Of a stretch of DNA of 48,413 nucleotides, positions 4,431-48,413 are shown piece after piece. The stretch is from the NCBI GenBank assembly GCA_903928915.1, contig CAIYSL010000052.1, positions 1 through 48,413 on the forward strand, written 5' to 3'. The notes under the pieces were generated by a model. The model was given only the letters and a program-made list of their open reading frames with translations. It was not told the DNA's origin and searched no databases. A program made the translations under genes and the position numbers. Source of the DNA: an uncultured Syntrophobacterales bacterium (GTDB lineage: Bacteria; Desulfobacterota; Syntrophia; Syntrophales; UBA5619). Position 1 is the first letter of the stretch, and each line of letters begins with the position of its first letter.

Positions 4431-4440
4431 AGATTCGCAT

Positions 4441-4524: not shown

Positions 4525-4545
4525 CTAAAAGATAGAGGTAACCAA

Positions 4546-28792: not shown

Positions 28793-29662
28793 ATGGGAGC
28801 AGGCAACAGGTTGAAAGAGACACCACCGGATGCGTTCGTCTCGCCGTTGAAGCCCATCCTCGACTACATTACCGAACAGCGGGGCGTCGATTTCTCGGGA
28901 TACCGGGCCTCCATGCTGCGGCGGCGCATCGACAGACGGATGGCCGTCACCGGTTCGCCCACGACCGAAGCCTACCTCGCCCATCTGCGGGATCATGCCC
29001 CGGAGATGGACGACCTTCTCGACGCGCTGACCATCAATGTCAGCAGATTCTTCCGCAATACCCTCACCTTCGAGTACCTCGCCGACCTGCTCCTGCCGGT
29101 CATCGTCCTCGGGAAGACCCGCTCCGGCAACGGCTCGCTGCGGGTCTGGTCGGCGGGCTGCGCGCAGGGAGAGGAGCCCTACTCCCTGGCGATCCTCCTG
29201 AAAGAACTCCTCTCCAAGGAGGGCATTGCCCTGGACCTCCATCTCTTCAGTACCGACATCAGCTTAACGGCCCTGAAACGGGCGCGGGAGGCGGTCTACA
29301 CCGCCGAAAGCGTAGCGGGCGTCAAGTACCGCCTGTTGCGGAAATACTTCGCGCCGGAGGGCAGCGCCTTCAAGCTCGCGAGCGAGATCAGGGAGATGGT
29401 CACGTTCTGCCGCCACAACCTGCTCGACAAACGGCACAGCGTCCCGCAGGAGAGCATCTACGGCGACTTCGACATCGTCCTGTGCCGGAACGTCCTGATC
29501 TACGTCGATGCCAGGCACCAGGAGACGATCTTCGCGCGGCTCCATCACGCCCTCGCCGCAGGCGGGTATCTCGTGCTGGGGGAAGCGGAAAGCCCGACCG
29601 GGGCATACGAGCGGCATTTCGCGCGGGTCACCGACTGCGGCCGCATCTACCAAAAACGGTAG
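28793..29662 (+). CDS. cheR: CheR-type chemoreceptor methyltransferase (full length)
   Basis: A 289-residue SAM-dependent methyltransferase. The N-terminal helical domain (GVDFSGYRASMLRRRIDRRM) is followed by TINVSRFFRN, the SAM-binding VWSAGCAQGEEPYSLAI, FSTDIS and FDIVLCRNVLIY blocks. It methylates Glu residues of chemoreceptors, which tunes receptor output. The ATG at 28793 has no clear site; a TTG at 28811 after GGGAGCAGG is possible. The hybrid kinase gene begins 16 bp after its stop, so both are likely co-transcribed. A second, truncated CheR-like protein is encoded at 46034. Confidence 0.9.
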   Translation: MGAGNRLKETPPDAFVSPLKPILDYITEQRGVDFSGYRASMLRRRIDRRMAVTGSPTTEAYLAHLRDHAPEMDDLLDALTINVSRFFRNTLTFEYLADLLLPVIVLGKTRSGNGSLRVWSAGCAQGEEPYSLAILLKELLSKEGIALDLHLFSTDISLTALKRAREAVYTAESVAGVKYRLLRKYFAPEGSAFKLASEIREMVTFCRHNLLDKRHSVPQESIYGDFDIVLCRNVLIYVDARHQETIFARLHHALAAGGYLVLGEAESPTGAYERHFARVTDCGRIYQKR

Positions 29663-29678
29663 GAACGGGGGAACGATC

Positions 29679-32600: not shown

Positions 32601-33011
32601 CCTGTCGGACATTCCGCACTGCCGGAGGCCGCCGGGAGCGACCGCATGGCCACGATCCTGATCGTCGAGGACAACCCCGACAACCTCACCACGGTCAGGG
32701 CGGTCCTGAAGGCCGGCGGCTACCGGATCGTCGAGGCGCGGGACGGCGAGGCCGGCATCGCGGCGGCGAAGCGGGAACGGCCCGACCTGATCCTCCTCGA
32801 CCTGGCGCTCCCGCTGCTGGACGGGCTCGCCGTGGCGCGAAGACTGAAAAGCGACGACGCCACGGCGCACATCCCCGTCGTCGCGCTGACCGCACGGGCG
32901 ATGAAAGGCGACCGGGAGGACGTTCTGAAGGCCGGCTGCGACGACTATGTGGCCAAGCCGATCGACATCGATGGCTTTACCGCAACGGTGAACCGATGGC
33001 TGGCGCGATGA
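29679..33011 (+). CDS. Hybrid sensor histidine kinase (Cache-HAMP-GAF-HK-REC-REC)
   Basis: 1110 residues, GTG start at 29679 after a GGGGGA site. TM1 is about 14-34, a periplasmic Cache-like domain runs to about 298, TM2 is 301-322 and HAMP 323-376. A GAF-like domain spans 385-535 and a Gln/Glu coiled coil 540-590. HisKA follows with NMSHELRTPLN (His603), then HATPase (NIIGNAVKFTDQG, DTGIGIPE, GTGLGLAIS). Two receivers follow: LLLVEDN with VLDLMMPG, and TILIVEDN with LLDLALPL. Both have the acceptor Asp; the second has the TARAMKGD switch and a KP pair. It senses an outside ligand and passes phosphate through two receivers, without an Hpt domain. Confidence 0.9.
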   Translation: MRRVEFTRMQHRLIAWFLAVALLPLLAVTVVIYQQRVRSIKQETFDKLTAIRDLKVDQINGWIRERSWDMEHFAKIAELLGLGAGPAGGARGPETTGAREKQFSLLAEMYKGARDFAGIYLISAASRKVVLASNPAFIGLDQSGQRLLTEPLRTGQPYISDVFFSDILKKPTLAVAAPVRDTRQPERPTTGVLVYLIDLERSVYPLLLDRSGLGETGETLIVNSDNVFLSELRWHNRAPLSLKTQAVPAVRAAKGETGILEGTDYRGEAILGAFTYLPATRWGFVAKMDQRELYAPIRMLFAGMAALFCAAAVIVCLLAILLGRYLSRPVVAMTETAKHIRAGDLAARNPIMTSDELGDLARAFNAMADGLAARVRDERANREFAQLVAAPNEVRGFAEAVVKKLAELTESPLAAFAVRNPATGRFEPIASLGMNPALLASFDAALREGEFGASLATGAVERIRDIPPDTAFTFKTFAGTIVPREIVTIPVTVRGEVRAMISLASIHGYAEEQIGILHQPAMLTLHTAFANVLANEATRSLAEELREKNQDLQAQSEELTAQSEELHQQSDEMRKQNEELQHQTLYVEEASRLKSQFLSNMSHELRTPLNSVMALSHVLMRQAADKLTAEELNYLGIIERNGRRLLTLINDILDLAKIEAGKMDVNPKPFSLKTTVENILESMAPLAAEKGIALTGELPSRFPLLESDEARVHQILQNIIGNAVKFTDQGGVTVSLSSDAEAVWVEVADTGIGIPEADLPYIFNEFMQVDGSASRRHEGTGLGLAISAKATHLLGGSIAVESAPGAGSRFTVTLPLRWRYPKAQRNPPPSVPPHLIVAGPKKEASRLLLVEDNEAAILQVRSVLESDGHLVDVARGGREALDYVRTTIPDGIVLDLMMPGIDGFAVLEEVRGSDSTRRIPVLILTARDLTPDDFKRLSANNVQQLVQKGDIDRDNLLGKVRAMLGIGRDRNPRSPVGHSALPEAAGSDRMATILIVEDNPDNLTTVRAVLKAGGYRIVEARDGEAGIAAAKRERPDLILLDLALPLLDGLAVARRLKSDDATAHIPVVALTARAMKGDREDVLKAGCDDYVAKPIDIDGFTATVNRWLAR

Positions 33012-33039
33012 CCGCGGGGCGGCAAACCGGGGGGGGACA

Positions 33040-36012
33040 ATGCCGAGCATACTAGCGATCGACGACAACCGGGACAATCTGACGACCATCGCGGCGCTGC
33101 TGAAGAATCTGCTGCCCGACTGCGCCCTGATTACCGCCTGCTCGGGGCAGGAGGGGATCGACCGGGCGCGGGCCGAGCAGCCGGACGCCATCCTCTTGGA
33201 CATCGTCATGCCGGGGATGGACGGGTTCGAGACCTGCCGGCGCCTCAAGGCGGACGACCGGAGCAGCCACATTCCGGTCATCATGCTCACGGCCATACGA
33301 ACGGAACCGCAGAGCCGGCTGCGGGCGCTGGAGACGGGCGCGGACGCCTTCCTGACCAAACCGATCGATCCCTATGAACTCGTCGCCCAGGTAAAGGTCG
33401 CTCTCCGGATCAAGGCAGCGGAGGACTGCCTGCGGGATGAAAATCGCAAGCTGGAGCGGCTGATCGACCAGAAAATCGGAGACCTGCGCATCTCCGAGGA
33501 GAAACTGTCCAAGATCTTTCAGGCCTCGCCCGATTCGCTGACCCTGTCGACGCTCGCGGAGCAGCGGTACATCGAGGTCAACGATGCCTTCCTCAGGCTG
33601 ATCGGCGCCGCACGGGAAACGGTCATCGGCCGCACCACCGCCGAGTTGGGGATCCTCGCCGACCCGGCCGCCTACGAACGGGCGCTGGAGATCATTCGCC
33701 GGACCGGCTCCCTCAAGGATCACGAGATCGAGCTCCGCATGCCGGACGGACAGACCCGGACCGTGCTCTGGTGCGCCGAGGCGATCGACTTCGCGGGGAA
33801 GGCCTGCACGATCAACGCGGTGAAGGACATCACCGACCGCAAACGGGCCGTGGAGGAGCGGGAGACGACGATCAAGCTGCTCAGCCTGCTCAACTCGGAA
33901 AACGGGCTGCGCGAGATCCTGCGGTTGATCTGCACGTTCCTCCACGACTGGTCGGGCTGCGAGGCGGTGGGCATCCGCCTGCGCGACGGCAACGATTTCC
34001 CCTACGCGGAGACCCGCGGGTTCCCCGGCGAGTTCGTGGAGGCGGAAAACCGCCTCTGCGTGGAATCCCACGACGACCGGCCGGCCGTCGAGGAGATCGG
34101 AAACCCTGCCCTGGAGTGCATGTGCGGCAACGTCCTGTGCGGCCGCTTCGACCCCGCCAAGCCCTTTTTCACCCCCCACGGCAGCTTCTGGTCCAACTGC
34201 ACCACGGAACTGCTGGCGACCACGACCGCGGAGGACCGCCAGGCCCGGACGCGCAACCGCTGCAACGGAGAGGGATACGAGTCGGTGGCTTTGATCCCGC
34301 TTCGGCTGGGCAAGACGACCTTCGGCCTGATCCAGCTGAACGACAAGCGGCGGGGACGCTTCACGCCGGGATTCATCGCCCAGATGGAGCGGATGGGCGA
34401 CAGCATCGCCGTCAGCCTTGCCCAACGCAAGACCCAGCAGGCGCTGCTCGCGAAGGAGCAGCAACTCTCCCGGGTGATGGAAACCAGCCCGGTCGGCATC
34501 GTCCAGATCGCCGTGGACGGACAGATCGTCTTCGCGAATCCCCAGGCGGAACGCATACTGGGCTTGACGAAGGACCGCCTCGCGGACATGACCTACAACG
34601 CCCCGGCATGGAGAATCACCGACTTCGCGGGCAACCCGTTTCCTGAGGATCAGCTCCCGTTCCGGCGCGTCATCGCCACCGGCGAGCCGGTGTACGACGT
34701 CCGGCACGCCATCGGCTGGCCGGACGGAACCCGGGTCCTGCTGTCGATCAACGCCGCGCCCCTCCTGAACGAAGCCGGTGGGGTCGAGGGAGTGGTGGCC
34801 GCGCTCAGCGACATCACCGAGCATTTTCGCGTCGCCGAGGAACACACGCTCCTCGAGGAGCGCCTGCACCGGGCCGAAAAGATGGAATCGCTCGGGCAGC
34901 TGGCCGGGGGCGTGGCCCACGACCTGAACAACATCCTCGGCGTTTCCACCGTGTACTCGGAGCTGCTCAAGGAAAAGATCCCGGACGAAAACCCCCTGCG
35001 GAGGTACGTGGACCATATCCTCTCCTCGCAGGAGAAGGCCGCGGCGATCATCCAGGACCTGCTCACGCTCGCCAGGAGAAGCGTGGTGGCGGCGGACGTC
35101 ATCAACCTCAACGACGTGATCGCCGGGTTCCTCAGGACCCCGGTGTTCGAGAAGATCCAGGGGTACTACCCCAACGTGACCTTCCGGACGCAGGCCGGCG
35201 CGCGCCTCCTGAACATCAGGGGCTCGGCCGTGCATATCGAAAAGACCCTGATGAACCTGGTCGCGAACGCGGCGGAGGCCATTGCCGGCAAGGGGGCCGT
35301 GACGATCACGACGGAGAACCGGTATCTCGACCGGCCGCTCAGCGGCTACGACGCGGTGCGGGAGGGAGATTACGCCGTATTGACCGTATCCGATACGGGC
35401 GCCGGGATACCCGCCGAGAGCATCGAGAAGATCTTCGAGCCCTTCTACACGAAAAAGACGATGGGCAGGAGCGGCACCGGTCTGGGGCTGGCCATCGTCT
35501 GGGGAACGGTGAAAGATCACGGCGGGTACATCGATGTCCAGACCGAGGTGGGCCGGGGAAGCGTCTTCACCCTCTTCTTCCCGGTCACGCGCGAGGAGCC
35601 CGCCGCGGCGCGGCAAAAGTCGCCGGTGGAACGGTATCTCGGCCGCGGGGAGTCGATCCTGGTGGTGGACGACAGCGCCGAGCAGCGCGACGTGGCCCAG
35701 CGGCTGCTCGGGCGGCTGGGGTACACGGTCCACCTGGCCGCGGGCGGGGAGGAGGCGGTGGAGTTCCTGAAGGGCCGCAGCGTCGACCTGGTGCTGCTGG
35801 ACATGATCATGGACCCCGGGATCGACGGCCTGGAGACCTACCGACGGATCGTGGCGCTGCGCCCGGGCCAGAAGGCGATCATCGTCAGCGGGTTCGCGGA
35901 GACGGACCGGGTGCGCACGGCCCAGGAGCTCGGGGCCGGGGCCTATGTGCGCAAGCCCTACCTGATGGAAACCATCGGCACCGCCATCCGGGACGAACTG
36001 CGCACGGGATAG
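33040..36012 (+). CDS. Cytoplasmic hybrid kinase (REC-PAS-GAF-PAS-HK-REC)
   Basis: 990 residues and no membrane segment. An N-terminal receiver (ILAIDDN, Asp54 in LLDIVMPGMDG) is followed by a PAS domain (about 155-270) and a GAF-like domain (about 280-460) with ECMCGNVLCGRF and further Cys, which may bind metal, haem or a thiol-reactive signal. A second PAS (about 470-590), HisKA (GGVAHDLNN, His627), HATPase with FEPFYTKK and GTGLGLAIVWG, and a C-terminal receiver (Asp921 in LLDMIMDPG) complete it. As the first receiver has no membrane partner of its own, phosphate may come from the upstream kinase. The C-terminal third is nearly repeated in the next gene. Confidence 0.9.
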   Translation: MPSILAIDDNRDNLTTIAALLKNLLPDCALITACSGQEGIDRARAEQPDAILLDIVMPGMDGFETCRRLKADDRSSHIPVIMLTAIRTEPQSRLRALETGADAFLTKPIDPYELVAQVKVALRIKAAEDCLRDENRKLERLIDQKIGDLRISEEKLSKIFQASPDSLTLSTLAEQRYIEVNDAFLRLIGAARETVIGRTTAELGILADPAAYERALEIIRRTGSLKDHEIELRMPDGQTRTVLWCAEAIDFAGKACTINAVKDITDRKRAVEERETTIKLLSLLNSENGLREILRLICTFLHDWSGCEAVGIRLRDGNDFPYAETRGFPGEFVEAENRLCVESHDDRPAVEEIGNPALECMCGNVLCGRFDPAKPFFTPHGSFWSNCTTELLATTTAEDRQARTRNRCNGEGYESVALIPLRLGKTTFGLIQLNDKRRGRFTPGFIAQMERMGDSIAVSLAQRKTQQALLAKEQQLSRVMETSPVGIVQIAVDGQIVFANPQAERILGLTKDRLADMTYNAPAWRITDFAGNPFPEDQLPFRRVIATGEPVYDVRHAIGWPDGTRVLLSINAAPLLNEAGGVEGVVAALSDITEHFRVAEEHTLLEERLHRAEKMESLGQLAGGVAHDLNNILGVSTVYSELLKEKIPDENPLRRYVDHILSSQEKAAAIIQDLLTLARRSVVAADVINLNDVIAGFLRTPVFEKIQGYYPNVTFRTQAGARLLNIRGSAVHIEKTLMNLVANAAEAIAGKGAVTITTENRYLDRPLSGYDAVREGDYAVLTVSDTGAGIPAESIEKIFEPFYTKKTMGRSGTGLGLAIVWGTVKDHGGYIDVQTEVGRGSVFTLFFPVTREEPAAARQKSPVERYLGRGESILVVDDSAEQRDVAQRLLGRLGYTVHLAAGGEEAVEFLKGRSVDLVLLDMIMDPGIDGLETYRRIVALRPGQKAIIVSGFAETDRVRTAQELGAGAYVRKPYLMETIGTAIRDELRTG

Positions 36013-36040
36013 GGACGATGACCTGCGGGGGGAAATCGGC

Positions 36041-39000
36041 ATGGACGATCGGAAGCGTGGAATGTGGATGAGCACCGGGGCCGCGCGGGAGCGGAAACAC
36101 CTCGAGTCCGCAGCGCCGGGGCAGCCCGGCCACGGGGCAGGGACGGGCGGAACGATGTCCCCGTCAGTGCGCCTGCTCCTGGCGGCCCCGGTTGTTTTCT
36201 TTCTCCTGCTGCTGATCGGTACCGTCATCCTCTCGAACGGCGGGTCCTACGAGCCCCCCTTCGTGCTGTTCCTGTTGAACCTCCTGTTTCTCACCGCCAT
36301 CCCCTTCGGCGTGGCGGCAGTCGTATCGCTGGCCTTTCTGAGGAGCGGCACGCTGACCTTGCTGCTGCTGGGCTGCGGAATGGTGTCGCTCGGAACGGGA
36401 AGCCTCCTGGGAGGCCTTGCCGTCCACAGGGACCCGAACGTTACGGTCACCCTGCACAACACGGGCAGTCTTCTGAGCGCCCTGTTTCTGTTTTCCTGTA
36501 CCCTCTTGTCGTTCACGCACACCGGTTCGGGCCTAGCTACCGCACGCAGGGGCGTCAAACTGACCGCCGCGTACCTGGCCATCGCGGCCGGTGGCGTCCT
36601 TCTCTATTGGGGATCCTCAGCCGCGCTTACCCCGCCGTTCTTCATCCAGGGGACCGGGCCCACGCCCCTCAGACAGACGATCCTCGGCGGGGCGCTGCTG
36701 TTCTTCACGCTGTCGACGATCCTTTCCGGTCTTCTGTATCTCCGTGAGCGGCATCTCTTTTTCCCGCTGTACGCGATCGGGCTCGCCCTGATGACCATCG
36801 GCCTGTATGCCGTCTTCATCCAGAAGGCGGTCGGCTCGCCGGTCGGGTGGGTAGGGAGGGGGGCGCAGTACGGTGCGATGCTGTACTTCCTGGCCGCGGC
36901 GGTCGTCGTCCTTAGGGAGCGGATCGCTACCGACCGCTCCTTTGCCTCGATCCTGGGGGGCTTCTTCAGCAACTACCTGAAGGAGCAGGTTCTAGTGCGG
37001 ACCGCCGCGCTGGAAGAGGTAACGGCCGCACTGGAAGCGCGCGAGACGCTGCTTGGGCTCCTGGCCGACAACGTGTCCGACGTGATCTGGGTGCTCGACC
37101 TGGAAACGATGCGCTTTCTGTACGTCAGCCCCTCGGTCGAGCGCCTGCGCGGCTACACCCCCGAGGAAGCGCTCGCCCAAGACGCCGCAGCGGCGCTGAC
37201 GGCGGAGTCGCTGCGGTATATCCGGCAGGTCATTCCCGAACGCGTGCGGGCCCTGGACCGAGAGCGGACAGGACCCTCGTACCGCGACGAAATCGGACAA
37301 CCCCACCGCGACGGCAGTACGGTCTGGACGGAAGTCACCACCCGCTACCGTCTCAACCCGAAGAACGGCCATGTCGAGGTGTACGGCGTGTCCCGCGACA
37401 TAAGCGAGCGCAGGCAGGCGGAGCAGGTCCTGATCGAGGCGGCGCGCGAGTGGTCGACCTCCTTCGATGCGATGTCCGACGGCGTGTCGATCCTCGGCGC
37501 CGATCGAACGATCCTCCGGGCCAACCGCGCCCTCTGCCGGATGCTGGGAAAGCGGGAAGAGGAAATCGTCGGCCAGAAATGCTTCCGGATCTTTCACGGC
37601 GGGGAGCATCCCGTCGACCGCTGCCCCGTTCAAACGACGCGGGAGACGCTCGCGGAAGGGCATGCGGAGTTCTTCGAACCTACGCTCGACCGGTGGTTGT
37701 CCGTCTCCACCGCGCCCGTTCTGGACGGAGCCGGCCGCCTGCAGCGGATTGTGCACGTGGCCCGGGACATCACCGATCGCATCCGAAGTCAGGAAGCCCT
37801 GGAAGAGAAGACGCGGCTGGTGCAGACCTTCATCGACGCCCTCCCCTGCACGGCCCTGCTGCTCGACCGCAACCGCGTCGTGGTGCTGCCCAACAAGTCC
37901 GCGCGGGAAGTCGGCGCGGCAGTGGGCACCCAGTGCTTCTACACCTGGGGGCAACGGCTGGAGCCCTGCCCCTGGTGCCTCGCCCCCGCCGCCCTGACGA
38001 CCGGAACGGAACAGCATCTCGTCGTGGAGGCCCTGGGCACGGTCTGGGACGCGCACTGGATACCGGTCGGCCCCGACCTGTACCTCCATTACGCCTTCGA
38101 CATCACCGACCGGAAACGGCTGGAGGAGCGGCTGCACCGGGCCGAAAAGATGGAGGCGCTGGGAATGCTGGCCGGGGGAGTGGCCCATGACCTCAACAAC
38201 GTCCTGGGGGTCCTGTTCGTCTACACGGAACTGCTCCGGGATATGGTCCCGGCGGGAGGCCCGCTGCAGACCTACGCCGATCAGATCCTGTCGTCGGGGG
38301 AAAAGGGGGCGGCGATCGTCCAGGACCTCCTGACCCTGGCCAGGAGGAGCGTGCCCGTGTACGGCGTACTCAACCTCAATGCCGTCATCGCCGATTTCCT
38401 CCGGACCCCGGTGTATGAGAAGCTGCAGGCCGGCCGCCCGGCGGTCTCCTTCCGGACGGAGCTCTCGCCGGAACTGCTCAACGTCAGGGGGTCCGCGCTC
38501 CACCTGGAAAAGACGGTGATGAACCTCATCGCCAATGCCGCGGAGTCGATCACGGACGGCGGCCGGGTGACCGTCCGGACGGAGAACCGGTACCTCGACC
38601 GGCCGGTGCACGGCTACGACGCCGTGCAGGAGGGAGACTACGCGGTCCTCGCCGTGTCGGACACGGGCGAAGGGATTTCGACCGAGGACATCGGCAAGAT
38701 CTTCGAGCCCTTCTACACGAAGAAGGTCATGGGCAGGAGCGGCACCGGCCTGGGGCTGGCCATCGTCTGGGGGACGGTGAAGGATCACAGCGGGTACATC
38801 GACGTGCAGAGCGAGGCGGGGACCGGCACGACCTTCACCCTCTACTTCCCGGTGACCCGCGAGGAGGCGCCGGAGGCGCCGCACAAAGTCCCGGTGGAGC
38901 AGTACCTGGGCCGGGGGGAGTCGATCCTCGTGGTGGACGACAGCCCCGAGCAGCGCGACGTGGCCGAGCGGCTGCTCGAGCGGCTGGGGTACACGGTCCA

Positions 39001-39286
39001 CCTGGCCGCGGGCGGGGAGGAGGCGGTGGAGTTCCTGAGGGGCCGCAGCGTCGACCTGGTGCTGCTGGACATGATCATGGACCCCGGGATCGACGGCCTG
39101 GAAACCTACCGGCGGATCGCGGCGCTGCACCCGGGGCAGCGGGCAATCATCGTCAGCGGGTTCGCCGAGACGGAGCAGGTCCGCACGGCCCAGGAGCTCG
39201 GGGCCGGGGCCTATGTGCGCAAGCCCTACCTGATGGAGAAGATCGGCACCGCCATCCGCGACGAACTGCGGAAGGGGCAATCGTAA
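36041..39286 (+). CDS. Membrane hybrid kinase (7TM sensor-PAS x3-HK-REC)
   Basis: 1081 residues. After a 38-residue tail, about eight hydrophobic segments (40-300) form a MASE-like integral sensor, then a linker helix. Three PAS domains follow: about 345-470, 475-600 and 605-700. The second and third carry Cys pairs (CFRIFHGGEHPVDRCPV; CFYTWGQRLEPCPWC), which may bind metal or a redox group. HisKA (GGVAHDLNN, His716), HATPase and a C-terminal receiver (Asp1010) complete it. The C-terminal part is close to the preceding gene at DNA level. The ATG at 36041 follows GGGGGG; an internal ATG at 36155 (MSPSV) would drop the tail. Confidence 0.88.
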   Translation: MDDRKRGMWMSTGAARERKHLESAAPGQPGHGAGTGGTMSPSVRLLLAAPVVFFLLLLIGTVILSNGGSYEPPFVLFLLNLLFLTAIPFGVAAVVSLAFLRSGTLTLLLLGCGMVSLGTGSLLGGLAVHRDPNVTVTLHNTGSLLSALFLFSCTLLSFTHTGSGLATARRGVKLTAAYLAIAAGGVLLYWGSSAALTPPFFIQGTGPTPLRQTILGGALLFFTLSTILSGLLYLRERHLFFPLYAIGLALMTIGLYAVFIQKAVGSPVGWVGRGAQYGAMLYFLAAAVVVLRERIATDRSFASILGGFFSNYLKEQVLVRTAALEEVTAALEARETLLGLLADNVSDVIWVLDLETMRFLYVSPSVERLRGYTPEEALAQDAAAALTAESLRYIRQVIPERVRALDRERTGPSYRDEIGQPHRDGSTVWTEVTTRYRLNPKNGHVEVYGVSRDISERRQAEQVLIEAAREWSTSFDAMSDGVSILGADRTILRANRALCRMLGKREEEIVGQKCFRIFHGGEHPVDRCPVQTTRETLAEGHAEFFEPTLDRWLSVSTAPVLDGAGRLQRIVHVARDITDRIRSQEALEEKTRLVQTFIDALPCTALLLDRNRVVVLPNKSAREVGAAVGTQCFYTWGQRLEPCPWCLAPAALTTGTEQHLVVEALGTVWDAHWIPVGPDLYLHYAFDITDRKRLEERLHRAEKMEALGMLAGGVAHDLNNVLGVLFVYTELLRDMVPAGGPLQTYADQILSSGEKGAAIVQDLLTLARRSVPVYGVLNLNAVIADFLRTPVYEKLQAGRPAVSFRTELSPELLNVRGSALHLEKTVMNLIANAAESITDGGRVTVRTENRYLDRPVHGYDAVQEGDYAVLAVSDTGEGISTEDIGKIFEPFYTKKVMGRSGTGLGLAIVWGTVKDHSGYIDVQSEAGTGTTFTLYFPVTREEAPEAPHKVPVEQYLGRGESILVVDDSPEQRDVAERLLERLGYTVHLAAGGEEAVEFLRGRSVDLVLLDMIMDPGIDGLETYRRIAALHPGQRAIIVSGFAETEQVRTAQELGAGAYVRKPYLMEKIGTAIRDELRKGQS

Positions 39287-39302: not shown

Positions 39303-40700
39303 GTGGCGAATATCCTGATCATCGACGACGACGAGGCCTTCTGCCGCGGATTGGCGGAGGCGATGCAGGCCGGAGGGAGCCAGGCGACCTGCGCCCATAC
39401 GCTCGAAGCGGGGCTGCGGCTTGCCGCGGCGGAGCCCTTCGATGTGGTTTTTCTCGACGTGATCCTGCCCGACGGTAACGGGCTGACGCGGCTTTCCGAC
39501 ATCCGGGCCGTCCCGTCCCGGCCGGAAATCATCATCCTTACGGGTGGCGGCACCCCCGACGGCGCCGAGATGGCGATCGCAAGCGGCGCCTGGGACTACA
39601 TCCAGAAACCCTTCCCGCTCAGCGTCATCCGGCTCCACCTGATGCGGGCCCTCCAGTACCGGGAAGAGCGGCAGATGCGCAAACCCCACAGCACGCTCAA
39701 GATCGGCGGCATCATCGGACGTAGCGCCCGGATGCGGGATTCCTACGACCTGCTCGCCGAGGCCGCGGCGGCGGACGTGACCGTGCTCATCACCGGGGAA
39801 ACGGGCACGGGCAAGGAATTGTTCGCCAAGGCGATTCACGACAACAGCCTTCGCGCCGGGGAGAGCTTCGTCGTCGTCGATTGCGCCGCGCTCCAGGGAA
39901 GCCTGATCGAGAGCATCCTGTTCGGGTACGAGAAAGGGGCCTTCACCGGCGCCGCGCAGAGCCGCGAGGGGCTGATCAAGCAGGCGGACCGGGGGACCTT
40001 GTTTCTGGACGAAATCGCCGAGCTTCCGCTGGCCGTGCAGAAGGTCTTTCTCCGGGTCCTCCAGGAGCGCCGTTTCCGACCGCTCGGTTGTCGCGGCGAG
40101 GTCGAGAGCAACTTCCGGCTGATCGCGGCCACCAACCGCAACCTGGCCGGGATGGTCCAGACGGGGCAGTTCCGGGAGGACCTCCTGTACCGGCTGCGGG
40201 CGCTGACGATCTCGCTGCCTCCGCTGAGGGAACACCGGGAGGATATCGTGCCGATCGCGCAGTACCACCAGGAGAAGATCTGCAAGCGCAGCGGTCTGGC
40301 CCCCAAGGTATTCTCGCCCGATTTCATCGAGGCGCTGCTCTCCTATGCCTGGCCGGGCAACGTCCGCGAACTGGTCAACGCGATCGACCGGGCCGTGGCC
40401 GCATCGGCGTCCGCCTCGACGCTGTTCAGCAGGCACCTGCCCCGGGAGATCCGCATCCAACTGGTGCGGGCCTCGACTGCAGCCGCGCCCGCCGATGAAG
40501 CGGCCGCCCCCCCGCCCCGCACCCTCCCCACCCTGAAGGAGCTGCGCGTCTCCGTGTACGAAAAGGCAGAGCGGGAGTATTTGCTCGACCTCCTCAAGCT
40601 TACCGCGGGCAGCATCGAGCAGGCCTGCGGAATCGCAGACCTCAGCCAGCCGCGACTGTATGAACTGCTGAGGAAACACCGGCTGTCGACAAAGGGATGA
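39303..40700 (+). CDS. NtrC-family sigma-54-dependent response regulator
   Basis: 465 residues. Receiver 1-120 (ILIIDDDEAF; Asp52 in FLDVILPDG), AAA+ domain from about 135 with GETGTGKELF (Walker A), the sigma-54 contact loop GAFTGA (212-217), GTLFLDEIAELP (Walker B) and a C-terminal Fis-type helix-turn-helix (about 425-462, ACGIADLSQPRLYELLRKH). A GTG start at 39303 has GGAGGAGAG upstream. It lies 16 bp after the third hybrid kinase, its likely partner. A palindrome at 40721-40777 and a sigma-54 promoter at 40854-40869 lie right downstream, so it probably drives the chemosensory operon. Confidence 0.93.
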   Translation: MANILIIDDDEAFCRGLAEAMQAGGSQATCAHTLEAGLRLAAAEPFDVVFLDVILPDGNGLTRLSDIRAVPSRPEIIILTGGGTPDGAEMAIASGAWDYIQKPFPLSVIRLHLMRALQYREERQMRKPHSTLKIGGIIGRSARMRDSYDLLAEAAAADVTVLITGETGTGKELFAKAIHDNSLRAGESFVVVDCAALQGSLIESILFGYEKGAFTGAAQSREGLIKQADRGTLFLDEIAELPLAVQKVFLRVLQERRFRPLGCRGEVESNFRLIAATNRNLAGMVQTGQFREDLLYRLRALTISLPPLREHREDIVPIAQYHQEKICKRSGLAPKVFSPDFIEALLSYAWPGNVRELVNAIDRAVAASASASTLFSRHLPREIRIQLVRASTAAAPADEAAAPPPRTLPTLKELRVSVYEKAEREYLLDLLKLTAGSIEQACGIADLSQPRLYELLRKHRLSTKG

Positions 40701-40923: not shown

Positions 40924-41304
40924 ATGGCATCTATTCTGTACATACCGGCCGGAAACGGCCTGGAACAGTGCTTCCGGGCCCTTCTGCAGATCACCGTCCC
41001 GAACAAAGAATTCGAAACGTACCGCTCCATCGGGGAGCTCGCGGAGAGGCTCGGCAGGCCGCCTTCCAACGTAAAGGTGGCCGTGCTGTTCGCCGTCAAC
41101 CGGGAGGAGTTCATGGGGATCCTTGCGATCGGCGACCTGATGCGGGACGTGAAGACCATCCTGATCCTGGCGGACCAGGACAAGGACACGATCGCGAAGG
41201 CGCACTCGCTGCGGCCGCGGTACATGACCTGGCTGGACGCGGAATTCGGCAATGTTCCGACCGTGCTGAAACGCATGGTCGATCTGTACGACAACGTGGC
41301 GTGA
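40924..41304 (+). CDS. Small receiver-like protein of unknown function
   Basis: 126 residues with alternating strands and helices of a receiver-like fold: ASILYIPAGNG, VAVLFAVNREEF, KTILILADQD, RPRYMTWLDA and a final VLKRMVDLYDN helix. The acidic pocket and the phospho-accepting Asp expected after the third strand are not evident (FAVNREE takes that place), so it may be a phosphorylation-independent pseudo-receiver. First gene after the sigma-54 promoter. It is 56 bp before the MCP-like gene and co-transcribed with it. I do not know a characterised homologue. Confidence 0.6.
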   Translation: MASILYIPAGNGLEQCFRALLQITVPNKEFETYRSIGELAERLGRPPSNVKVAVLFAVNREEFMGILAIGDLMRDVKTILILADQDKDTIAKAHSLRPRYMTWLDAEFGNVPTVLKRMVDLYDNVA

Positions 41305-41360
41305 CCCCCGCCGCGCCGGCGGGACCGCGGGAAGCCCGGAGAGAGGACGACGGACACGGC

Positions 41361-43196
41361 ATGAGGAGAGGGAGTCTGAGCCTGACATCGCTGTTCTTCC
41401 ATCGCACCGTTCCCCGTACCTGGGAGAAGCGGCTGCGCTCCACGGCCGCCGGCCTCGGAGAGCTGTCGGCGTCGACGGAAGAGGAATTCCTCTCGCTCGG
41501 ACGGGGGCTTCAGGTCTTCAGCGGCCGCAGCAGGGATCTGTCCGCGCGCTCCTCCTCCATCGCGGCCCTGATGGCGGGAACGGGGATGAGCGGCGCGATG
41601 GCCGGGTTCCGGCAGATCCTGGAGGAGGCGCAGGACCTAGGCCGGGACTCCCGGCAGGGGGCGGATGTCCTGAAGGCCGTCCTGGAGAGGCTCGGCGAGC
41701 TGCAGCAGCCGCTCGCGGGGTTCGCCCGGATCGTCAGGAACCTTCGCATCCTTTGCACCTTCGTGAAGATCGAAAGCGCCCGTCTCGAATGCGGCGACAC
41801 CGGATTCGACACCCTGTCCGAGGACGTGGGCAGGCTGGCCGCCACGATCGCGGCCAAATCGTCCGATCTGTTCGAACAATCGGCCTCCCTGACGGCGGCG
41901 GTCGCCGGCAGCCTCCGCAAGATCGGCGACTTCGAACGGACCCGGCAATGCCAGGCCCGCTCCATCATCGACGGCGCCTCCGGTTGCCTGCGCGCCCTGA
42001 CCGACCGGCACGCCCTCTCGGTGGCGACGATGGAAGACGTCGCTGCCCGGTGGACCCGCATCACCGGGGATATCGGCGAGGTCGTGTCTTCCCTGCAGTT
42101 TCACGACATCACCCGGCAGCGGATCGAACACGTGGCCGAAGCGCTGGCGGAAATTACGGACCGAACCGCCGCCACGCCGTCCGGCGCTCCGCGCGGATCC
42201 GTCGGGGTCGCCGACGTGGTCGCGGTGTGCGAACTGCAGCGGGCCCAGCTCGACCATGCGCGGCAGGAGGTCCTCTCGGCAATCGCGCGGATCGCAGGCA
42301 GTCTTCGGGATATCGCAGGCCACGTCGGGGAAATGTGCCGGGAGACGCGGAGCCTGGTGGCGGCCGCGGACGGCGGAGGATCGCCGTCCTCGTTCCTGTC
42401 GTCCCTGGAGGAGAGCTTCTCCGCGGTGACCGATTCGATCGCCGAGTACGGCCGTCTCGGCGCCGAACTCGGCGCCACGATCGACCATGCGGTCCGCACG
42501 ATCGGGGCGATGTCGACGTTCGTCGGCGACATCGAAAAGATCGGCATCGAGATCCGGATGATCGGGCTCAACGCCTGCGTCCGGGCCGCCCATGTGGGAG
42601 AGCGGGGCGCTGCGCTGGGGGTGCTTGCCGACTCGATCCATCAACTCTCCAGCGATACAGCCGGCCTGACCGACGCGCTCGCCAGAAACCTGAAAGCAGT
42701 CATCCATTCGGCCGCGGAATTGAACGATCGGCAGACGGCCGCGGCCCAGGATCGGCAACATCTGCTGGCGCAGGAGGTTGCGCGGCTGATGGAACCGCTG
42801 AAGCGCCTCGACGGGGAGACCCTCACCCTCCTGCACGGAATCACCGCACAGGGGGACGCCCTCGCCGACGACATCACCGCCGCCTCGGCCGGGATTCGAG
42901 TGCACGAGCAAATCGATCGGGGGATCGAGGACGTAATCGCGGGGCTCGATTCGTTCATCACCGGGATGAAACCGATGCTCTCCCGGAGGAGGCGGCAAGA
43001 CGCGGGCGACGGGATCGGCGCGCTGGCAGGGCGGTACACGATGCACAGCGAGCGCCAGGTGCACCAGTCGGTGGCCGCGGGCGGGACCGCCGCCGCGCTG
43101 GCGCTCGCCGCGCCTGCTCTGGCCGGGGCGGACGCTGCCGCTCCGGCAGGCGGAGACGGCCGGGAAGATCTCGGCGACAATGTGGAACTGTTCTGA
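41361..43196 (+). CDS. Cytoplasmic MCP-like / CheZ-like helical protein
   Basis: A 611-residue, mostly alpha-helical protein without membrane segments. The region near 244-258 has SLQFHDITRQRIEHV, which resembles the CheZ-type QF-x-D motif and similar blocks in soluble chemotaxis adaptors. Near 395-425 DIEKIGIEIRMIGLNACVRA and a following HVGERGAALGVLADSIHQL echo the hairpin tip of methyl-accepting proteins, though altered: the usual ALNAAIEAARAGE is degenerate. It may be a soluble receptor-like partner for CheA, or a CheY phosphatase. The start at 41361 has a GGAC-rich leader; the frame extends farther upstream without a better start. It is the second gene of the operon. Confidence 0.65.
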   Translation: MRRGSLSLTSLFFHRTVPRTWEKRLRSTAAGLGELSASTEEEFLSLGRGLQVFSGRSRDLSARSSSIAALMAGTGMSGAMAGFRQILEEAQDLGRDSRQGADVLKAVLERLGELQQPLAGFARIVRNLRILCTFVKIESARLECGDTGFDTLSEDVGRLAATIAAKSSDLFEQSASLTAAVAGSLRKIGDFERTRQCQARSIIDGASGCLRALTDRHALSVATMEDVAARWTRITGDIGEVVSSLQFHDITRQRIEHVAEALAEITDRTAATPSGAPRGSVGVADVVAVCELQRAQLDHARQEVLSAIARIAGSLRDIAGHVGEMCRETRSLVAAADGGGSPSSFLSSLEESFSAVTDSIAEYGRLGAELGATIDHAVRTIGAMSTFVGDIEKIGIEIRMIGLNACVRAAHVGERGAALGVLADSIHQLSSDTAGLTDALARNLKAVIHSAAELNDRQTAAAQDRQHLLAQEVARLMEPLKRLDGETLTLLHGITAQGDALADDITAASAGIRVHEQIDRGIEDVIAGLDSFITGMKPMLSRRRRQDAGDGIGALAGRYTMHSERQVHQSVAAGGTAAALALAAPALAGADAAAPAGGDGREDLGDNVELF

Positions 43197-43209
43197 GCGG
43201 GGGATCGAT

Positions 43210-43551
43210 ATGGAGATACGGTATTCCGACAGGGGCGTCGTACGGCTGGAGGGAGAACTGAACATCCAGGAGGCGGGGCGGCTCAGGGAGCTGCTCCTAC
43301 AGGCCTTCGGCGAGGTGCAGGAACTGTCCCTCGACCTGGAGGGGGTGACCGAAGCCGACACCGCCTGCCTGCAGGTACTCTGCTCGGCGCACAAGTCCTT
43401 CCTGACGGCGAATAAGACGCTGACGACGACCGGCGTCCCGGCGGCGCCCTTCATCCGCACGGTGGACGACAGCGGCTACCGGCGCACGGTCGGATGCCAC
43501 TCCGACCCGCAGCGCGGTTGCCTCTGGGTCATAGGAGGGGGCCGTGGGTAA
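43210..43551 (+). CDS. STAS-domain protein
   Basis: 113 residues with a STAS-like pattern: VVRLEGELNIQEAGRLRELL, LSLDLEGVTEADTACLQVL and SAHKSFLTANKTL. At the place of the switch serine there is ADTACL, so the usual phosphorylated Ser is replaced by Thr or Ala. In chemosensory operons STAS proteins couple to MCP-like partners. It starts 13 bp after the previous stop; the downstream cheY start overlaps its 3' end by 8 bp. Confidence 0.7.
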   Translation: MEIRYSDRGVVRLEGELNIQEAGRLRELLLQAFGEVQELSLDLEGVTEADTACLQVLCSAHKSFLTANKTLTTTGVPAAPFIRTVDDSGYRRTVGCHSDPQRGCLWVIGGGRG

Positions 43552-43909
43552 GATCATCCTGACTGCCGACGACTCAGCGAGCGTACGCCAGATGGTGACC
43601 TTCACCCTGAAGGAGGCCGGCTACGAGGTTATCGAAGCGGTGGACGGGAAAGACGCCCTGGCGAAGGCGGGCGGCCGGACCCCGCACCTGCTCCTCACCG
43701 ACCTGAATATGCCCAATCTCGACGGTATCGGCCTGATCCGGGCGCTGAGGGCTACCCCTGCCTGCCGGTTCATCCCGATGATCCTGTTGACCACCGAGTC
43801 CCAGGCGGAGAAGAAACTGGAAGGCAAGGCTGCCGGGGCGACCGGATGGATCGTGAAACCCTTCAAGCCGGACCAGCTTCTGGCGGTAATCAAGAAGGTG
43901 CTCGGATGA
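43544..43909 (+). CDS. cheY: CheY-type single-domain response regulator
   Basis: 121 residues: ILTADDSASVRQM (Asp pair), LLLTDLNMPNLDG with the acceptor Asp near 53, ILLTTES (switch Thr) and WIVKPFKPDQL (conserved Lys). All key residues are present. A GTG start follows AGGAGGGGG. The STAS gene overlaps it by 8 bp and cheA overlaps its stop codon (ATGA), so the three are coupled. It is most likely phosphorylated by the CheA encoded next. Its output may be a flagellar motor, pili or something else, which the sequence does not show. Confidence 0.92.
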   Translation: MGKIILTADDSASVRQMVTFTLKEAGYEVIEAVDGKDALAKAGGRTPHLLLTDLNMPNLDGIGLIRALRATPACRFIPMILLTTESQAEKKLEGKAAGATGWIVKPFKPDQLLAVIKKVLG

Positions 43910-46032
43910 CCGACACGCATAGGGAAGCATTCAAGGAAGAGGCGCACGAACTGCTCGGCGAACTGGAAAACGCCCTGCTCGAACTGGAAAAGACGCCCGC
44001 CGACGAGGACCTGATCGGCCGCGTATTCCGGGCCATGCACACCATCAAGGGGTCGGGAGCGATGTTCGGGTTCGACGACATCGCCGCCTTCACCCACGAC
44101 GTGGAGACGGTGTACGACCGCGTCCGCGGCGGCAAGATCGCAGTGACAAAACCGCTGATCGACCTCACCCTGTCGGCCTGCGATGCCATCCGGCGGATGG
44201 TCGGCGCCCCGGAGGGGGCCGCGCTGCAGGACCCGCAGTCCGCCTCGCTCACCCAATCCTTCCGCGCCGTTCTGCACGAGCAGGAGCAGCCGGCGCCGGG
44301 CGCGGCCGAAGCGGGCGCACCCGCCCCGCCGCAACGGCCGCCGGAGAAGGCGCGGCGCGTAACCTACCGGATCCGTTTCCAGCCCGTGGCCGAACTGTTC
44401 GTCTCGGGCACCAATCCCATCCTGCTGCTGAACGAACTGCGCGGCCTGGGCGCCTGCACCGTCGTGGCCCACCGGGAGCGGGTCCCGCTGATCGCGGAGC
44501 TCAATCCCGAGCTCTGCTACACCTACTGGGACATCATCCTGACCACGGAACGGGACGTCGACGCCATCAGGGACGTCTTCATCTTCGTGGAGGACGCCTG
44601 CGAGCTGCGGATCGACGTGATCGACGACGAGGGCTGGACCGACGACGACGGGGGGTACAAGAAACTGGGCGAGATCCTGGTCGAACGCGGCGACCTGACG
44701 CTCGACGAGATCAAGAAGGCCCTCGGCTCCTGCAAGCGGATCGGCGACATCCTCGTCGAGTCCGGGCTGGTCGCCCCCGACAAGGTCGAGTCGGCGCTCG
44801 TCGAGCAGCAGCATATCCGCGAGGAGCGCCAGAAACGCCAGGCAGCGGAAGCGGCGGCCAGCGTCCGGGTTCCCGCGGCGAAGCTCGACAGCCTGGTAAA
44901 CATGGTGGGAGAGCTGGTGACGATCCAGTCGCGGCTGAGCCAGCTGGCAACCCGTTCCGGCGACCTGGCGATCATCCAGGTTGCCGAAGAGGTGGAGCGG
45001 CTGATCGCAGAGCTCAGGGACAACACGATGAGCGTCCGGATGCTCCCGATCGGCACCACCTTCAGCAAGTTCCAGCGCCTCGTCCGCGACCTCTCGACCG
45101 GACTGGGCAAGGAAATCGTCCTGGCCACCGAGGGGGGCGAAACGGAGCTGGACAAGACGGTGATCGAGAAGCTCAACGACCCGCTGATCCACCTGATCCG
45201 CAACAGCATCGACCATGGGATCGAGAAACCCGAGGCGCGCAGGCAGGCGGGGAAACCCGCCCAGGGGACCATCCGCCTGGCCGCCGAACACTCCGGGGCG
45301 CACGTCTTCATCCGGATCACCGACGACGGCGCGGGGCTCGACACCGAGGCGATCCGCGCGAAGGCCATCGAGCGGGGCATGATCGCAGCCGACGCAACGC
45401 TCTCCGAGCGGGAGTTGTACGCCCTGATCCTCGCCCCCGGATTTTCCACGGCCAAAGAGGTGACCAACGTCTCGGGCCGCGGCGTGGGGATGGACGTGGT
45501 GAAGCGGAGCATCGACGCCCTGCAGGGCACGATCGAAATCACCAGCCAGCGCGGGACGGGATCCACCGTCAGCCTCAAGCTGCCGCTGACGATGGCGATC
45601 ATCGACGGGCTTTTGGTGCGGATCGCCCAGGCCTATTTCGTGATGCCGCTGGCGGCCATCGAGGAGTGCGTCGAGCTCACCCGGGCCGACGCGGCCAAGG
45701 CCCACGGCAAGAACCTGACCAGCATCCGCGGGCAGATCGTCCCCTACATCCGCCTGCGGGAGCGATTCTCCATCGACGGCCAGGCGCCGGCGATCGAGCA
45801 GATCGTCACCACCAGCATCGACGGCCTCACGGTCGGGTTCGTGGTCGACCAGGTGGTGGGCGAACATCAGACGGTGATCAAGACGATGGGCAGGGTCTAC
45901 CGGGACGTGGAAGCGGTCTCCGGGGCCACGATCCTCGGCGACGGCACCGTGGCCCTGATCCTGGACCTGCCGAAGCTCCTGCAGGGCGCCGAGGCGGAGA
46001 TCCGGGCGCAGCAGCAGACAGGGAGGGGATAG
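43906..46032 (+). CDS. cheA: CheA histidine kinase with extra MshEN-like segment
   Basis: 708 residues. Hpt domain with AMHTIKGSG (His45); linker; a P2-like domain (about 151-240, YRIRFQP ... GTNPILLLNEL). An unusual stretch of about 60 residues (253-302: LGEILVERGDLTLDEIKKAL then IGDILVESGLVAPDKVESAL) resembles the two-part MshEN/GspE-N fold. Dimerisation (323-350, VRVPAAKLDSLVNMVGELV), HATPase (LIRNSIDHGIE, DDGAGLDTEAI, GRGVGMDVVK) and a CheW-like regulatory domain (560-708) follow. It receives signals from chemoreceptors and phosphorylates CheY. MshEN domains in other proteins can bind c-di-GMP; here the binding residues are not confirmed. Confidence 0.92.
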   Translation: MTDTHREAFKEEAHELLGELENALLELEKTPADEDLIGRVFRAMHTIKGSGAMFGFDDIAAFTHDVETVYDRVRGGKIAVTKPLIDLTLSACDAIRRMVGAPEGAALQDPQSASLTQSFRAVLHEQEQPAPGAAEAGAPAPPQRPPEKARRVTYRIRFQPVAELFVSGTNPILLLNELRGLGACTVVAHRERVPLIAELNPELCYTYWDIILTTERDVDAIRDVFIFVEDACELRIDVIDDEGWTDDDGGYKKLGEILVERGDLTLDEIKKALGSCKRIGDILVESGLVAPDKVESALVEQQHIREERQKRQAAEAAASVRVPAAKLDSLVNMVGELVTIQSRLSQLATRSGDLAIIQVAEEVERLIAELRDNTMSVRMLPIGTTFSKFQRLVRDLSTGLGKEIVLATEGGETELDKTVIEKLNDPLIHLIRNSIDHGIEKPEARRQAGKPAQGTIRLAAEHSGAHVFIRITDDGAGLDTEAIRAKAIERGMIAADATLSERELYALILAPGFSTAKEVTNVSGRGVGMDVVKRSIDALQGTIEITSQRGTGSTVSLKLPLTMAIIDGLLVRIAQAYFVMPLAAIEECVELTRADAAKAHGKNLTSIRGQIVPYIRLRERFSIDGQAPAIEQIVTTSIDGLTVGFVVDQVVGEHQTVIKTMGRVYRDVEAVSGATILGDGTVALILDLPKLLQGAEAEIRAQQQTGRG

Positions 46033-46033: not shown

Positions 46034-46642
46034 ATGGCCTTCACCTTCTTCTTCCGGGACCTGACGCCGCTGGAGCACGCCGTGCGGTTCCTGATCGTCG
46101 CGGCAAGCGGCCGGAGCAGGGTGCGGATCTGGGACGCCGGCTGCGCCATGGGCCAGGAACCCTATACCCTGGGGATCCTCCTGGCCGAGCAGATGAACCA
46201 GTTCGCCTTCCGCAACGTCACCATTTCCGCCACCGATTACGACGAGCCGCTCCTGAAGGTCCTGCGCGAGGGGGTCTACCCCCGGGACGAGCTCCAACGG
46301 ATCCCGACGGAGCTGTTCGCGAAGTATTTCCAGCCGAACGGCAAAGAGGGACACTACCAGGTCGTCGATGCCATCCGCGAGCGCATCCAGGCGCAGCACC
46401 ACGACCTTCTTTCGCTGCAGCCCTGCGGGAGCGGCTTCAGCCTGGTGGTCTGCAAGAACGTGCTGCTCCATTTCCAGCCGGACCAGCGCTGCGACGTGAT
46501 CCGGATGTTTCACGGCGCAATGGAGCCGGGCGCCATCTTCGTGACCGAGCACACCCAGAAGATGCCCGACGAGGTCGGCCACCTGTTCGAGCAGCTCGTG
46601 TCGGACAGCCAGGTGTTCCGCAAGCGGGAGGTGCCGGCGTGA
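46034..46642 (+). CDS. Truncated CheR-like methyltransferase (catalytic domain only)
   Basis: 202 residues starting right at TFFFRDLTPLEHAV, without the N-terminal helical domain seen in CheR at 28793. The SAM site (IWDAGCAMGQEPYTLGIL), TDYDEPLLKVLREGVY and VVCKNVLLHF blocks are kept, with GQEPYT in place of GEEPYS. It starts 1 bp after the cheA stop and overlaps the next gene (GTGA). It may be a divergent CheR that acts on the cytoplasmic MCP-like protein, or an adaptor. A frameshifted N terminus was looked for but cheA occupies the upstream DNA. Confidence 0.8.
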   Translation: MAFTFFFRDLTPLEHAVRFLIVAASGRSRVRIWDAGCAMGQEPYTLGILLAEQMNQFAFRNVTISATDYDEPLLKVLREGVYPRDELQRIPTELFAKYFQPNGKEGHYQVVDAIRERIQAQHHDLLSLQPCGSGFSLVVCKNVLLHFQPDQRCDVIRMFHGAMEPGAIFVTEHTQKMPDEVGHLFEQLVSDSQVFRKREVPA

Positions 46643-47268
46643 AGGTGATCGCCATTCCCGGATCGGACAGGGTCTACTCGTCCAACGTCTACCTCTGCCT
46701 GGGCGACTGGAACCGGATCGAGGACGCAAACACCCTGATCGACGTGGGCAACGACCCGGGGCGGGTCCCCCTGATCGAGGAATGGCCCTCGGGGATCGGC
46801 AAGAAGCGGGTGGAGCGGGTGATTCTCACCCACTGCCATTCGGACCACACGGGCATCCTGCCGCAGGTCCGCACTGCCTTCGAGCCCGAGGTGTGCGCCT
46901 TCTCCCCTTTCTTCGCCGGCGCAGCCCGGGTCCTCAAGGACGGCGACACGCTCCGGATCGCCGACCGGGAATGCGAGATCATCCATATGCCGGGCCACAG
47001 CGACGATTCGATCTGCATCCACTGCCGGGAGGAGGGGATCCTCTTCGTCGGGGACGCGCCGGTGATCTGCCAGACCGGCAGCGGCACCTACGCGCAGCGG
47101 TTCGTCGACACGCTCCAGGCCCTCTGCCGGAAGAATATCCAAACGATCTATTTCGGCCACGGCGCGCCGCTCGTGGCGAACGCCAAACAACAACTGATCG
47201 CCTCGCTCCACCGGATCAGGGAAGGAGGTGCGCACGCTGAACTGCGAATGGCTGCACACGGAACGTAG
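46639..47268 (+). CDS. MBL-fold metallo-hydrolase in chemosensory operon
   Basis: 209 residues with the full set of metallo-beta-lactamase-fold metal ligands: THCHSDHTG (HxHxDH), the second His in MPGHSDDS, the bridging Asp in FVGDAPV and the last His in YFGHGAPL. It may bind zinc or iron. The substrate is unknown; members include glyoxalase-II-like thioesterases, lactonases and di-iron sensors. A GTG start overlaps the truncated CheR stop codon. Its presence inside a che operon is unusual and suggests a signal-processing role or a redox/oxygen sensor. Confidence 0.85.
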   Translation: MKVIAIPGSDRVYSSNVYLCLGDWNRIEDANTLIDVGNDPGRVPLIEEWPSGIGKKRVERVILTHCHSDHTGILPQVRTAFEPEVCAFSPFFAGAARVLKDGDTLRIADRECEIIHMPGHSDDSICIHCREEGILFVGDAPVICQTGSGTYAQRFVDTLQALCRKNIQTIYFGHGAPLVANAKQQLIASLHRIREGGAHAELRMAAHGT

Positions 47269-47316: not shown

Positions 47317-48413
47317 ATGTTTGCGAAAATGAAGTTGGCCACAAAGATCTTTACCGGATTCATCGTGGTCGCGGTGATCGCCGGGATGATCGGGGTGTTC
47401 GGGATTTATCAGATAAAAAAAATCGATGCTGCCGACACGATGATGTATGAGAACGTAGTGGTGCCGCTGGAGGAGGTAGCGATGATCTCGGAAGGCTTCC
47501 AGCGGATGCGGAACAACGCCCGGGATTTGATCCTTTCCGACTCGAAGGCGGAGTCGGCGGACATCGAAAAGCGCGCCAAGGCGCGCATGACCCAAGCGGC
47601 GGAACTGATACCGAAGTACGAGAAGAAGATCCTCACCGACGAAGGGCGCAAGCAATTCGACGATTTCAAGAAATACTGGGCGGCCTACCTGACGGACTGG
47701 GATAAGATGCTTGCCCTCACGGCGCAGGGGAAGAACAAGGAGGCCATCGCCTTCCTGAAAGGCGACATGGCCCAATCGTCCCGGCAAGTGCAGGACCTCC
47801 TGGCAAAAATGATGGACCAGAAGGCCGAGATCGGGAAGAAGACATCAGACGACAACTCGAAGCTCGCCAGCACCGCCACCTACGTGATGATCGGCTTCAC
47901 CGTCGCCGGCCTCATCCTGGCGATTATCTTCGGTTTCTTCGCGGGCCGGATCATCCGGGGCATCATTAGCTCGCTCCTGGCCGAGACCAAGTCGCTGGTC
48001 GACGCCGCAGTCGGGGGCAAGCTCGCCACCCGGGGCGACGTGCAGAAGGTGAACTTCGAATTCCAGGGGATCGTCCAGGGGGTGAACGACACCCTCGACG
48101 CGGTGATCGGTCCCTTGAACGTAGCGGCCGAGTACGTGGATAGGATCTCCAAGGGCGACATCCCGCCCCGGATCACCGACAGCTACAACGGCGACTTCAA
48201 CGAGATCAAAAACAACCTCAACCAGTGCATCGACGCGGTCAACGTCCTCGTCGCCGACGCGGCCGTCCTCGCCAAGGCGGCGGTGGAGGGGAAGCTGGCC
48301 ACCCGGGCCGACGCGGCCAAGCACCAGGGCGACTTCCGCAAGATCGTCCAGGGGGTGAACGACACCCTGGATTCGGTGATCGGCCCCTTGAACGTGGCGG
48401 CCGAGTACGTGGA
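47317..48413 (+). CDS. Methyl-accepting chemoreceptor with repeated HAMP units (3' end outside window)
   Basis: Open from ATG 47317, after AAGGAGGAGGA, to the window edge (365 codons seen). An N-terminal TM segment (IFTGFIVVAVIAGMIGVFGI) is followed by a four-helix-bundle periplasmic region of about 160 residues, TM2 (YVMIGFTVAGLILAIIFGFF), then a HAMP domain and two near-identical cytoplasmic repeats around GKLATR, GDF and IVQGVNDTLD. The window ends inside the second. The methylation and signalling hairpin must lie to the right. It is 48 bp from the MBL gene and may belong to the same operon; a strong ribosome binding site suggests high expression. Confidence 0.85.
   Translation, partial: MFAKMKLATKIFTGFIVVAVIAGMIGVFGIYQIKKIDAADTMMYENVVVPLEEVAMISEGFQRMRNNARDLILSDSKAESADIEKRAKARMTQAAELIPKYEKKILTDEGRKQFDDFKKYWAAYLTDWDKMLALTAQGKNKEAIAFLKGDMAQSSRQVQDLLAKMMDQKAEIGKKTSDDNSKLASTATYVMIGFTVAGLILAIIFGFFAGRIIRGIISSLLAETKSLVDAAVGGKLATRGDVQKVNFEFQGIVQGVNDTLDAVIGPLNVAAEYVDRISKGDIPPRITDSYNGDFNEIKNNLNQCIDAVNVLVADAAVLAKAAVEGKLATRADAAKHQGDFRKIVQGVNDTLDSVIGPLNVAAEYV
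48070..48413 (+). repeat. 273-bp period coding repeat in the poly-HAMP receptor
   Basis: The stretch from 48070 recurs from 48343 with few differences (ATCGTCCAGGGGGTGAACGA is shared), a spacing of 273 bp or 91 codons. This is the unit of a poly-HAMP array, visible at DNA level. The array continues beyond the right edge. Confidence 0.85.

Follow-up and report, generated by a model that had tools for sequence, protein, structure and literature searches.

A shortened CheR (hereafter CheRs) and an MBL-fold protein, encoded as a conserved pair beside chemoreceptors with arrays of HAMP_2 repeats, look like a second, undescribed receptor-control module. Receptor adaptation is generally attributed to a single enzyme pair, CheR and CheB. 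The new pair was identified in a window of 48,413 nucleotides from an uncultured Syntrophobacterales bacterium (contig CAIYSL010000052.1 of assembly GCA_903928915.1), and the genes listed below from position 39303 onwards lie on its forward (+) strand. If the module is true, the existence of another conserved pair linked to poly-HAMP receptors would mean that HAMP arrays have a control of their own, or that receptor signalling takes direct input from SAM and a metal centre. With either outcome multi-HAMP receptors would gain a concrete and testable role, for which cultured Geomonas strains are one place to look.

Layout and conservation of the gene pair

The CheRs gene (46034–46642) encodes a protein of 202 aa that consists of the SAM-binding CheR domain only. 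AGGGAGGGG lies upstream of its start, which is placed 1 base after the stop codon of the CheA gene (43906–46032, start approximate; Hpt, dimerisation, HATPase and CheW domains). The TGA stop codon of CheRs overlaps the GTG start codon of the MBL gene (46639–47268, 209 aa), as a previous sequence-only reading of this DNA had stated, in a 4-nt GTGA at 46639–46642, and a purine-rich GGGAGG precedes the GTG by about 6 nt, a gene layout from which translational coupling of the two genes is plausible. Further upstream, the locus encodes an NtrC-type sigma-54 response regulator as a possible output (39303–40700), a 126-aa protein with no Pfam match that is conserved in the L090, L091 and L099 clusters (40924–41304), a protein of about 629 aa with a weak MCP-signal match (41307–43196, start approximate), a STAS-domain protein (43180–43551), and a CheY-like response regulator (43544–43909). 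The protein of about 629 aa is conserved between the 126-aa and STAS proteins in many related clusters. Downstream of the pair, a chemoreceptor (MCP) gene with a 4HB_MCP_1 sensor and HAMP_2 repeats (47317–48413) is cut by the contig end. Elsewhere in the window, a second CheR with a full CheR_N (28793–29662) lies beside consecutive genes for large hybrid histidine kinases (29508–39286), and the GC content is 53–57% in positions 1–6000 and 63–69% in the remainder.

The pair was searched for in the genome contigs, in the class, and in 395 evenly drawn genomes of the phylum, the last with thresholds of E ≤ 1e-20 for MBL and E ≤ 1e-40 for CheRs. A total of 29 CheRs loci were found, 24 of them with an MBL orthologue. 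Among the 395 phylum genomes, CheRs was present in 17 and MBL in 13, all of the latter within the former (hypergeometric P ~3e-21, kinship ignored); no MBL without CheRs was seen in these genomes, and CheRs occurred without MBL in G185, G437, G445 and G490. The two genes were on the same strand and adjacent or close in every locus that contains both. In 18 of these 24 loci the spacing was within 8 nt in either order, in three more within 70 nt, in two 437–475 nt, and in one 2.0 kb with intervening genes; an identical 4-nt overlap was found in eight. The reversed gene order in L095 and L100 speaks in favour of a functional link and against a single frozen layout. Co-occurrence in 13/13 genomes and the same strand in 24/24 loci rule out chance adjacency. 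A functional pairing of CheRs and MBL is strongly supported by these genomic distributions, which are also what shows MBL to depend genetically on CheRs. The sequence-only reading had suggested a genome survey for adjacent or fused forms and held that an MBL gene rarely beside CheR would count against the pair. Adjacency proved to be the rule, and no fusion was seen among the loci surveyed; a 404-aa ORF in L098, considered as a fusion, proved to be the MBL frame prolonged at its upstream side, which is out of frame with CheRs.

Several loci carry additional genes near the pair. A gene for a 23S-IVP/bAvd-like protein lies between CheRs and MBL in L094 (3181–3537; G431), a small ORF takes the same position in L093, and FapA with a response regulator is found there in L101. 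In L091 (4922–5698; G149), the MBL gene is followed by that of a ParA-like ATPase, which possibly positions the array.

The pair is real, conserved, built from known folds and apparently undescribed, with no description found in a literature search outside which most subscription journals lay. The Geobacter alpha and beta clusters (Tran et al. 2008, PMC2577667) are Geobacteraceae che clusters without assigned function; the accessible part of that paper says that they lack mcp genes and mentions neither an MBL gene nor a short CheR.

Residues and folds of the two proteins

The sole Pfam match of the CheRs ORF is PF01739 (E 1e-39, 136 bits against a cut-off of 27). CheR_N (PF03705) was absent by Pfam from the protein and from its relatives; in CheR, this all-alpha N-terminal domain helps to enclose SAM. 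No in-frame start codon exists upstream of the ORF, and the opening MAFT[FY]F[FM]RD stands at the same alignment column in 27 of 29 CheRs sequences, with lengths of about 199–204 aa. Of the two exceptions, L092 is a diverged sequence, and for L107 the start had been called at a shifted position. A longer CheR with a misannotated start codon is thereby ruled out, as is an N-terminal domain encoded as a separate nearby gene, since the genome search found no separate CheR_N stretch near CheRs. Judged from the alignment, the truncation is real and old, and the previous description of a CheR-like protein without its N-terminal domain was correct. The uniform start places the R98-containing motif at the extreme N-terminus.

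For residue comparison, 21 CheRs sequences were aligned and mapped onto the numbering of Salmonella CheR, whose sequence was checked against 1af7. The equivalents of R98, E129, D154 and N231 were retained in 21/21 sequences, and with E129, D154 and N231 the SAM site appears to be kept, as had been proposed. The Y235 equivalent was His in 21/21 (His146 in the window protein), the R230 equivalent was Lys in 21/21, and the N212 equivalent was Asp or Asn. The pentapeptide-binding residues were mostly lost in the alignment: R187, G188 and G190 of the beta-subdomain, a list taken from PMC2577667, were not retained. R79 and Y218 of Treponema CheR were reported to be essential for methylation (PMC7666581); by our own mapping these would correspond to R98 and Y235 of Salmonella CheR, so that CheRs would keep one essential residue and uniformly replace the other.

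The AF2 model of CheRs (pLDDT 91.3) matched solved CheR structures with Z 24–25, including the P. aeruginosa CheR1 C-domain with SAH (5xlx, Z 24.9). Since this C-domain was crystallised with SAH, at least one homologue shows that the CheR domain can bind cofactor when the N-terminal domain is missing. Canonical CheR proteins (PF01739; Salmonella 1af7/1bc5, P. aeruginosa CheR1 5xlx) have this fold, the SAM motif and the four retained residues in common with CheRs, and differ from it in the CheR_N domain, the Tyr and Arg replaced by His and Lys, and the three pentapeptide-binding residues. The short proteins also form one clade apart from full-length CheR proteins with 99/99 support. The branch is long, and the tree program cautions about long-branch joins. 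A further comparison is offered by Treponema CheWS (CheW-CheR-like), which likewise has a non-canonical CheR fold with an altered Tyr position in a system that also contains a canonical CheR. In contrast to CheWS, CheRs is not fused to CheW, keeps R98, and is without the N-terminal subdomain still present in CheWS. The Treponema CheR-like domain has lost the Arg equivalent and is thought to be non-catalytic (PMC7666581), and it senses SAM (PMC10653840).

In the MBL protein, Pfam found only Lactamase_B (E 4e-17), and the CheB_methylest domain was absent. The ligand set H65, H67, D69, H70, H120, D139 and H174 is complete, in agreement with the sequence-only reading; six of the residues were invariant in 23 MBL sequences and H67 was at least 90% conserved. 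The MBL fold and its metal ligands are common to hydrolases, oxygenases and diiron sensors. The best fold match of the AF2 model (pLDDT 93.0) was YcbL (Z 19.1), followed by LACTB2 (18.8) and the flavodiiron ROO (18.5), and ODP reached 17.1 (6qwo) and 16.9 (6r9n), so that hydrolase, flavodiiron and ODP folds are nearly tied, with differences too small to point to one function. The profile search of solved sequences gave LACTB2 (1e-19), glyoxalase II (3e-17) and FprA (8e-6) among the matches listed, and PqsE-type thioesterases were also among the best PDB sequence matches; ODP was not among the best 60 matches listed, where hydrolases scored higher, an absence that is still compatible with kinship. 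The best NCBIfam match was glyoxalase II (TIGR03413) with 56.8 bits, under the equivalog cut-off of 200.8. Glyoxalase II, YcbL and LACTB2 have the HxHxDH...H...D...H ligands and the fold (Z 18–19) in common with the MBL protein, which differs from glyoxalase II in falling far under the family cut-off, in leaving no room for a glutathione-binding C-terminal domain, and in its chemosensory context. ODP of Treponema and Thermotoga is an MBL-fold protein that senses oxygen and is genetically coupled to an MCP (PMC7666581). It resembles the MBL protein of the pair in its di-metal ligand set, its chemoreceptor gene coupling and its fold (Z ~17), whereas the latter is also coupled to a short CheR and appears by profile to be nearer to glyoxalase II and LACTB2.

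Neighbouring receptors and canonical adaptation enzymes

A HAMP_2 receptor on the same strand was found within 2.7 kb of CheRs in 24 of the 29 loci. Among the five loci without one nearby, L088, L098, L105 and L107 are situated at the ends of contigs, and the fifth is the diverged L092. The sensors of these receptors vary (4HB, PAS, Cache or none), and HAMP_2 (PF18947) repeats were present in all CheRs-neighbouring receptors examined. By hand count, about 17 of the 25 HAMP_2 proteins among the matches listed for 14 CheRs genomes were near CheRs, and 14 control genomes gave none at the same threshold among the matches listed. As a correlation within related bacteria, the HAMP_2-array chemoreceptor thus appears to be a constant neighbour of CheRs, which is a new finding; the linkage may also reflect the inheritance of a single operon type.

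The contig ends at position 48413 inside the HAMP-repeat array of the receptor gene. Beyond the window, only contig C107 closely matches this end (90% over 163 bases). The first bases of C107 already lie, in frame, within a HAMP array, and the receptor ends there with KDAEFEKY (G000:C107, about 2–1444), followed by a CheW-like sequence and then by a full-length CheR, with CheR_N, and CheB. In the tree, this CheR sits among the operonic CheR proteins of the relatives. The sole close end match, the in-frame opening and the CheR placement make it very probable that the operon continues to the right on C107.

Full-length CheR and CheB were also encoded in the same cluster in L091, L097, L099, L102, L104, L106 and L108, that is, in most relatives with enough flank, and CheB was encoded in 28/28 genomes searched, with up to nine matches. 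In Geomonas, Citrifermentans and L043, the contig of the pair carries no CheB, no canonical CheR is nearby, and CheB is encoded elsewhere in the genome. The receptors beside the pair keep C-terminal pentapeptides of the CheR/CheB type. The pair looks to exist in addition to the normal adaptation enzymes CheR and CheB. In the CheRs tree, the L043 contig, labelled Peptococcaceae (Bacillota), is placed among same-order genomes (100% support); it may belong to a MAG with a wrong assignment or reflect a transfer.

Candidate roles of the pair

The foremost candidate, which we put forward tentatively, is that CheRs and MBL form an accessory module of the chemosensory pathway with the HAMP_2-array receptor, in which CheRs would modify, and MBL would restore, something that canonical CheR and CheB leave alone, so that the pair works beside these enzymes rather than instead of them. 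CheRs would still bind SAM and methylate a carboxylate within the receptor complex. This carboxylate would be beyond the reach of canonical CheR and most likely in or near the HAMP array; the missing receptor-recognition domain and pentapeptide pocket suggest that the targets of the two differ. The di-metal MBL protein may then hydrolyse the CheRs mark or otherwise reverse the step. An eraser needs a writer, and the occurrence of CheRs without MBL, and never of MBL without CheRs, fits this role. The eraser is the weakest link. We know of no MBL-fold protein methylesterase, and the fold and ligands serve several functions.

The enzymatic module is favoured by the residues retained in all 21 sequences and the invariant His, unlike the Treponema CheR-like domain with its lost Arg, by the conserved MBL ligands, and by hydrolases being the closest solved sequences among the matches listed. 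The conservation of the pair and its linkage to HAMP_2 receptors also argue for a module, and the canonical CheR and CheB in the same clusters, together with the C107 CheR in the operonic clade, place it beside the normal enzymes. Counted against catalysis are the loss of the SAM-enclosing N-terminal domain, the replacement of Y235, reported as essential (PMC7666581), and the precipitation of the Treponema CheR-like domain without its N-terminal domain (PMC10653840). The specific form of this proposal, a second control loop of the methylation type in which a minimal CheR marks the HAMP array or its vicinity and an MBL-fold metalloenzyme other than CheB removes the mark, in parallel to CheR/CheB on the same receptor, is rather unlikely.

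Nearly as likely as the enzymatic module, in our analysis, is a SAM sensor paired with a metal sensor: CheRs would be a SAM/SAH-binding regulator or scaffold of the array instead of a methyltransferase, and MBL would sense iron, oxygen or redox state through the neighbouring receptor. Precedents are the Treponema CheR-like domain, a SAM-binding sensor of SAM/SAH that also stabilises arrays, and the MCP-coupled oxygen sensor ODP; the replaced Y235 and the flavodiiron and ODP fold scores near the best Z point in the same direction. However, R98 is invariant in CheRs and lost in CheWS, the MBL profile is nearer to hydrolases than to flavoproteins such as FprA, with ODP outside the best 60 matches listed, and a free-standing sensor would be expected to occur sometimes without CheRs, which was not seen.

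A small-molecule role for MBL, which would hydrolyse a thioester, a lactone or a conjugate of the glutathione type whose level is read by the receptor, with CheRs as simply an alternative receptor methyltransferase, is improbable. The glyoxalase II match in NCBIfam and the LACTB2, glyoxalase II and PqsE-type matches in the PDB are consistent with such an activity, but the matches are far under the family cut-offs, and this reading would leave unexplained why MBL depends strictly on CheRs and not on the receptor.

The replacement of CheB by MBL as the methylesterase for receptors methylated by CheRs, as the sequence-only reading proposed together with a check for missing CheB, would suit the Geomonas, Citrifermentans and L043 clusters but is very improbable, given canonical CheR and CheB in most relatives' clusters, CheB in all genomes searched, and the pentapeptides kept by the receptors; a normal CheB to the right of the pair, which that reading had named as counter-evidence, is very probably present here through C107, although these three clusters have none nearby.

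With no recognised che genes around it, the diverged pair in L092 (3283–4435; G053) combines a 159-aa CheR carrying the canonical Arg and Tyr with an MBL protein in which the second ligand His is changed to Asp (HGDYDH).
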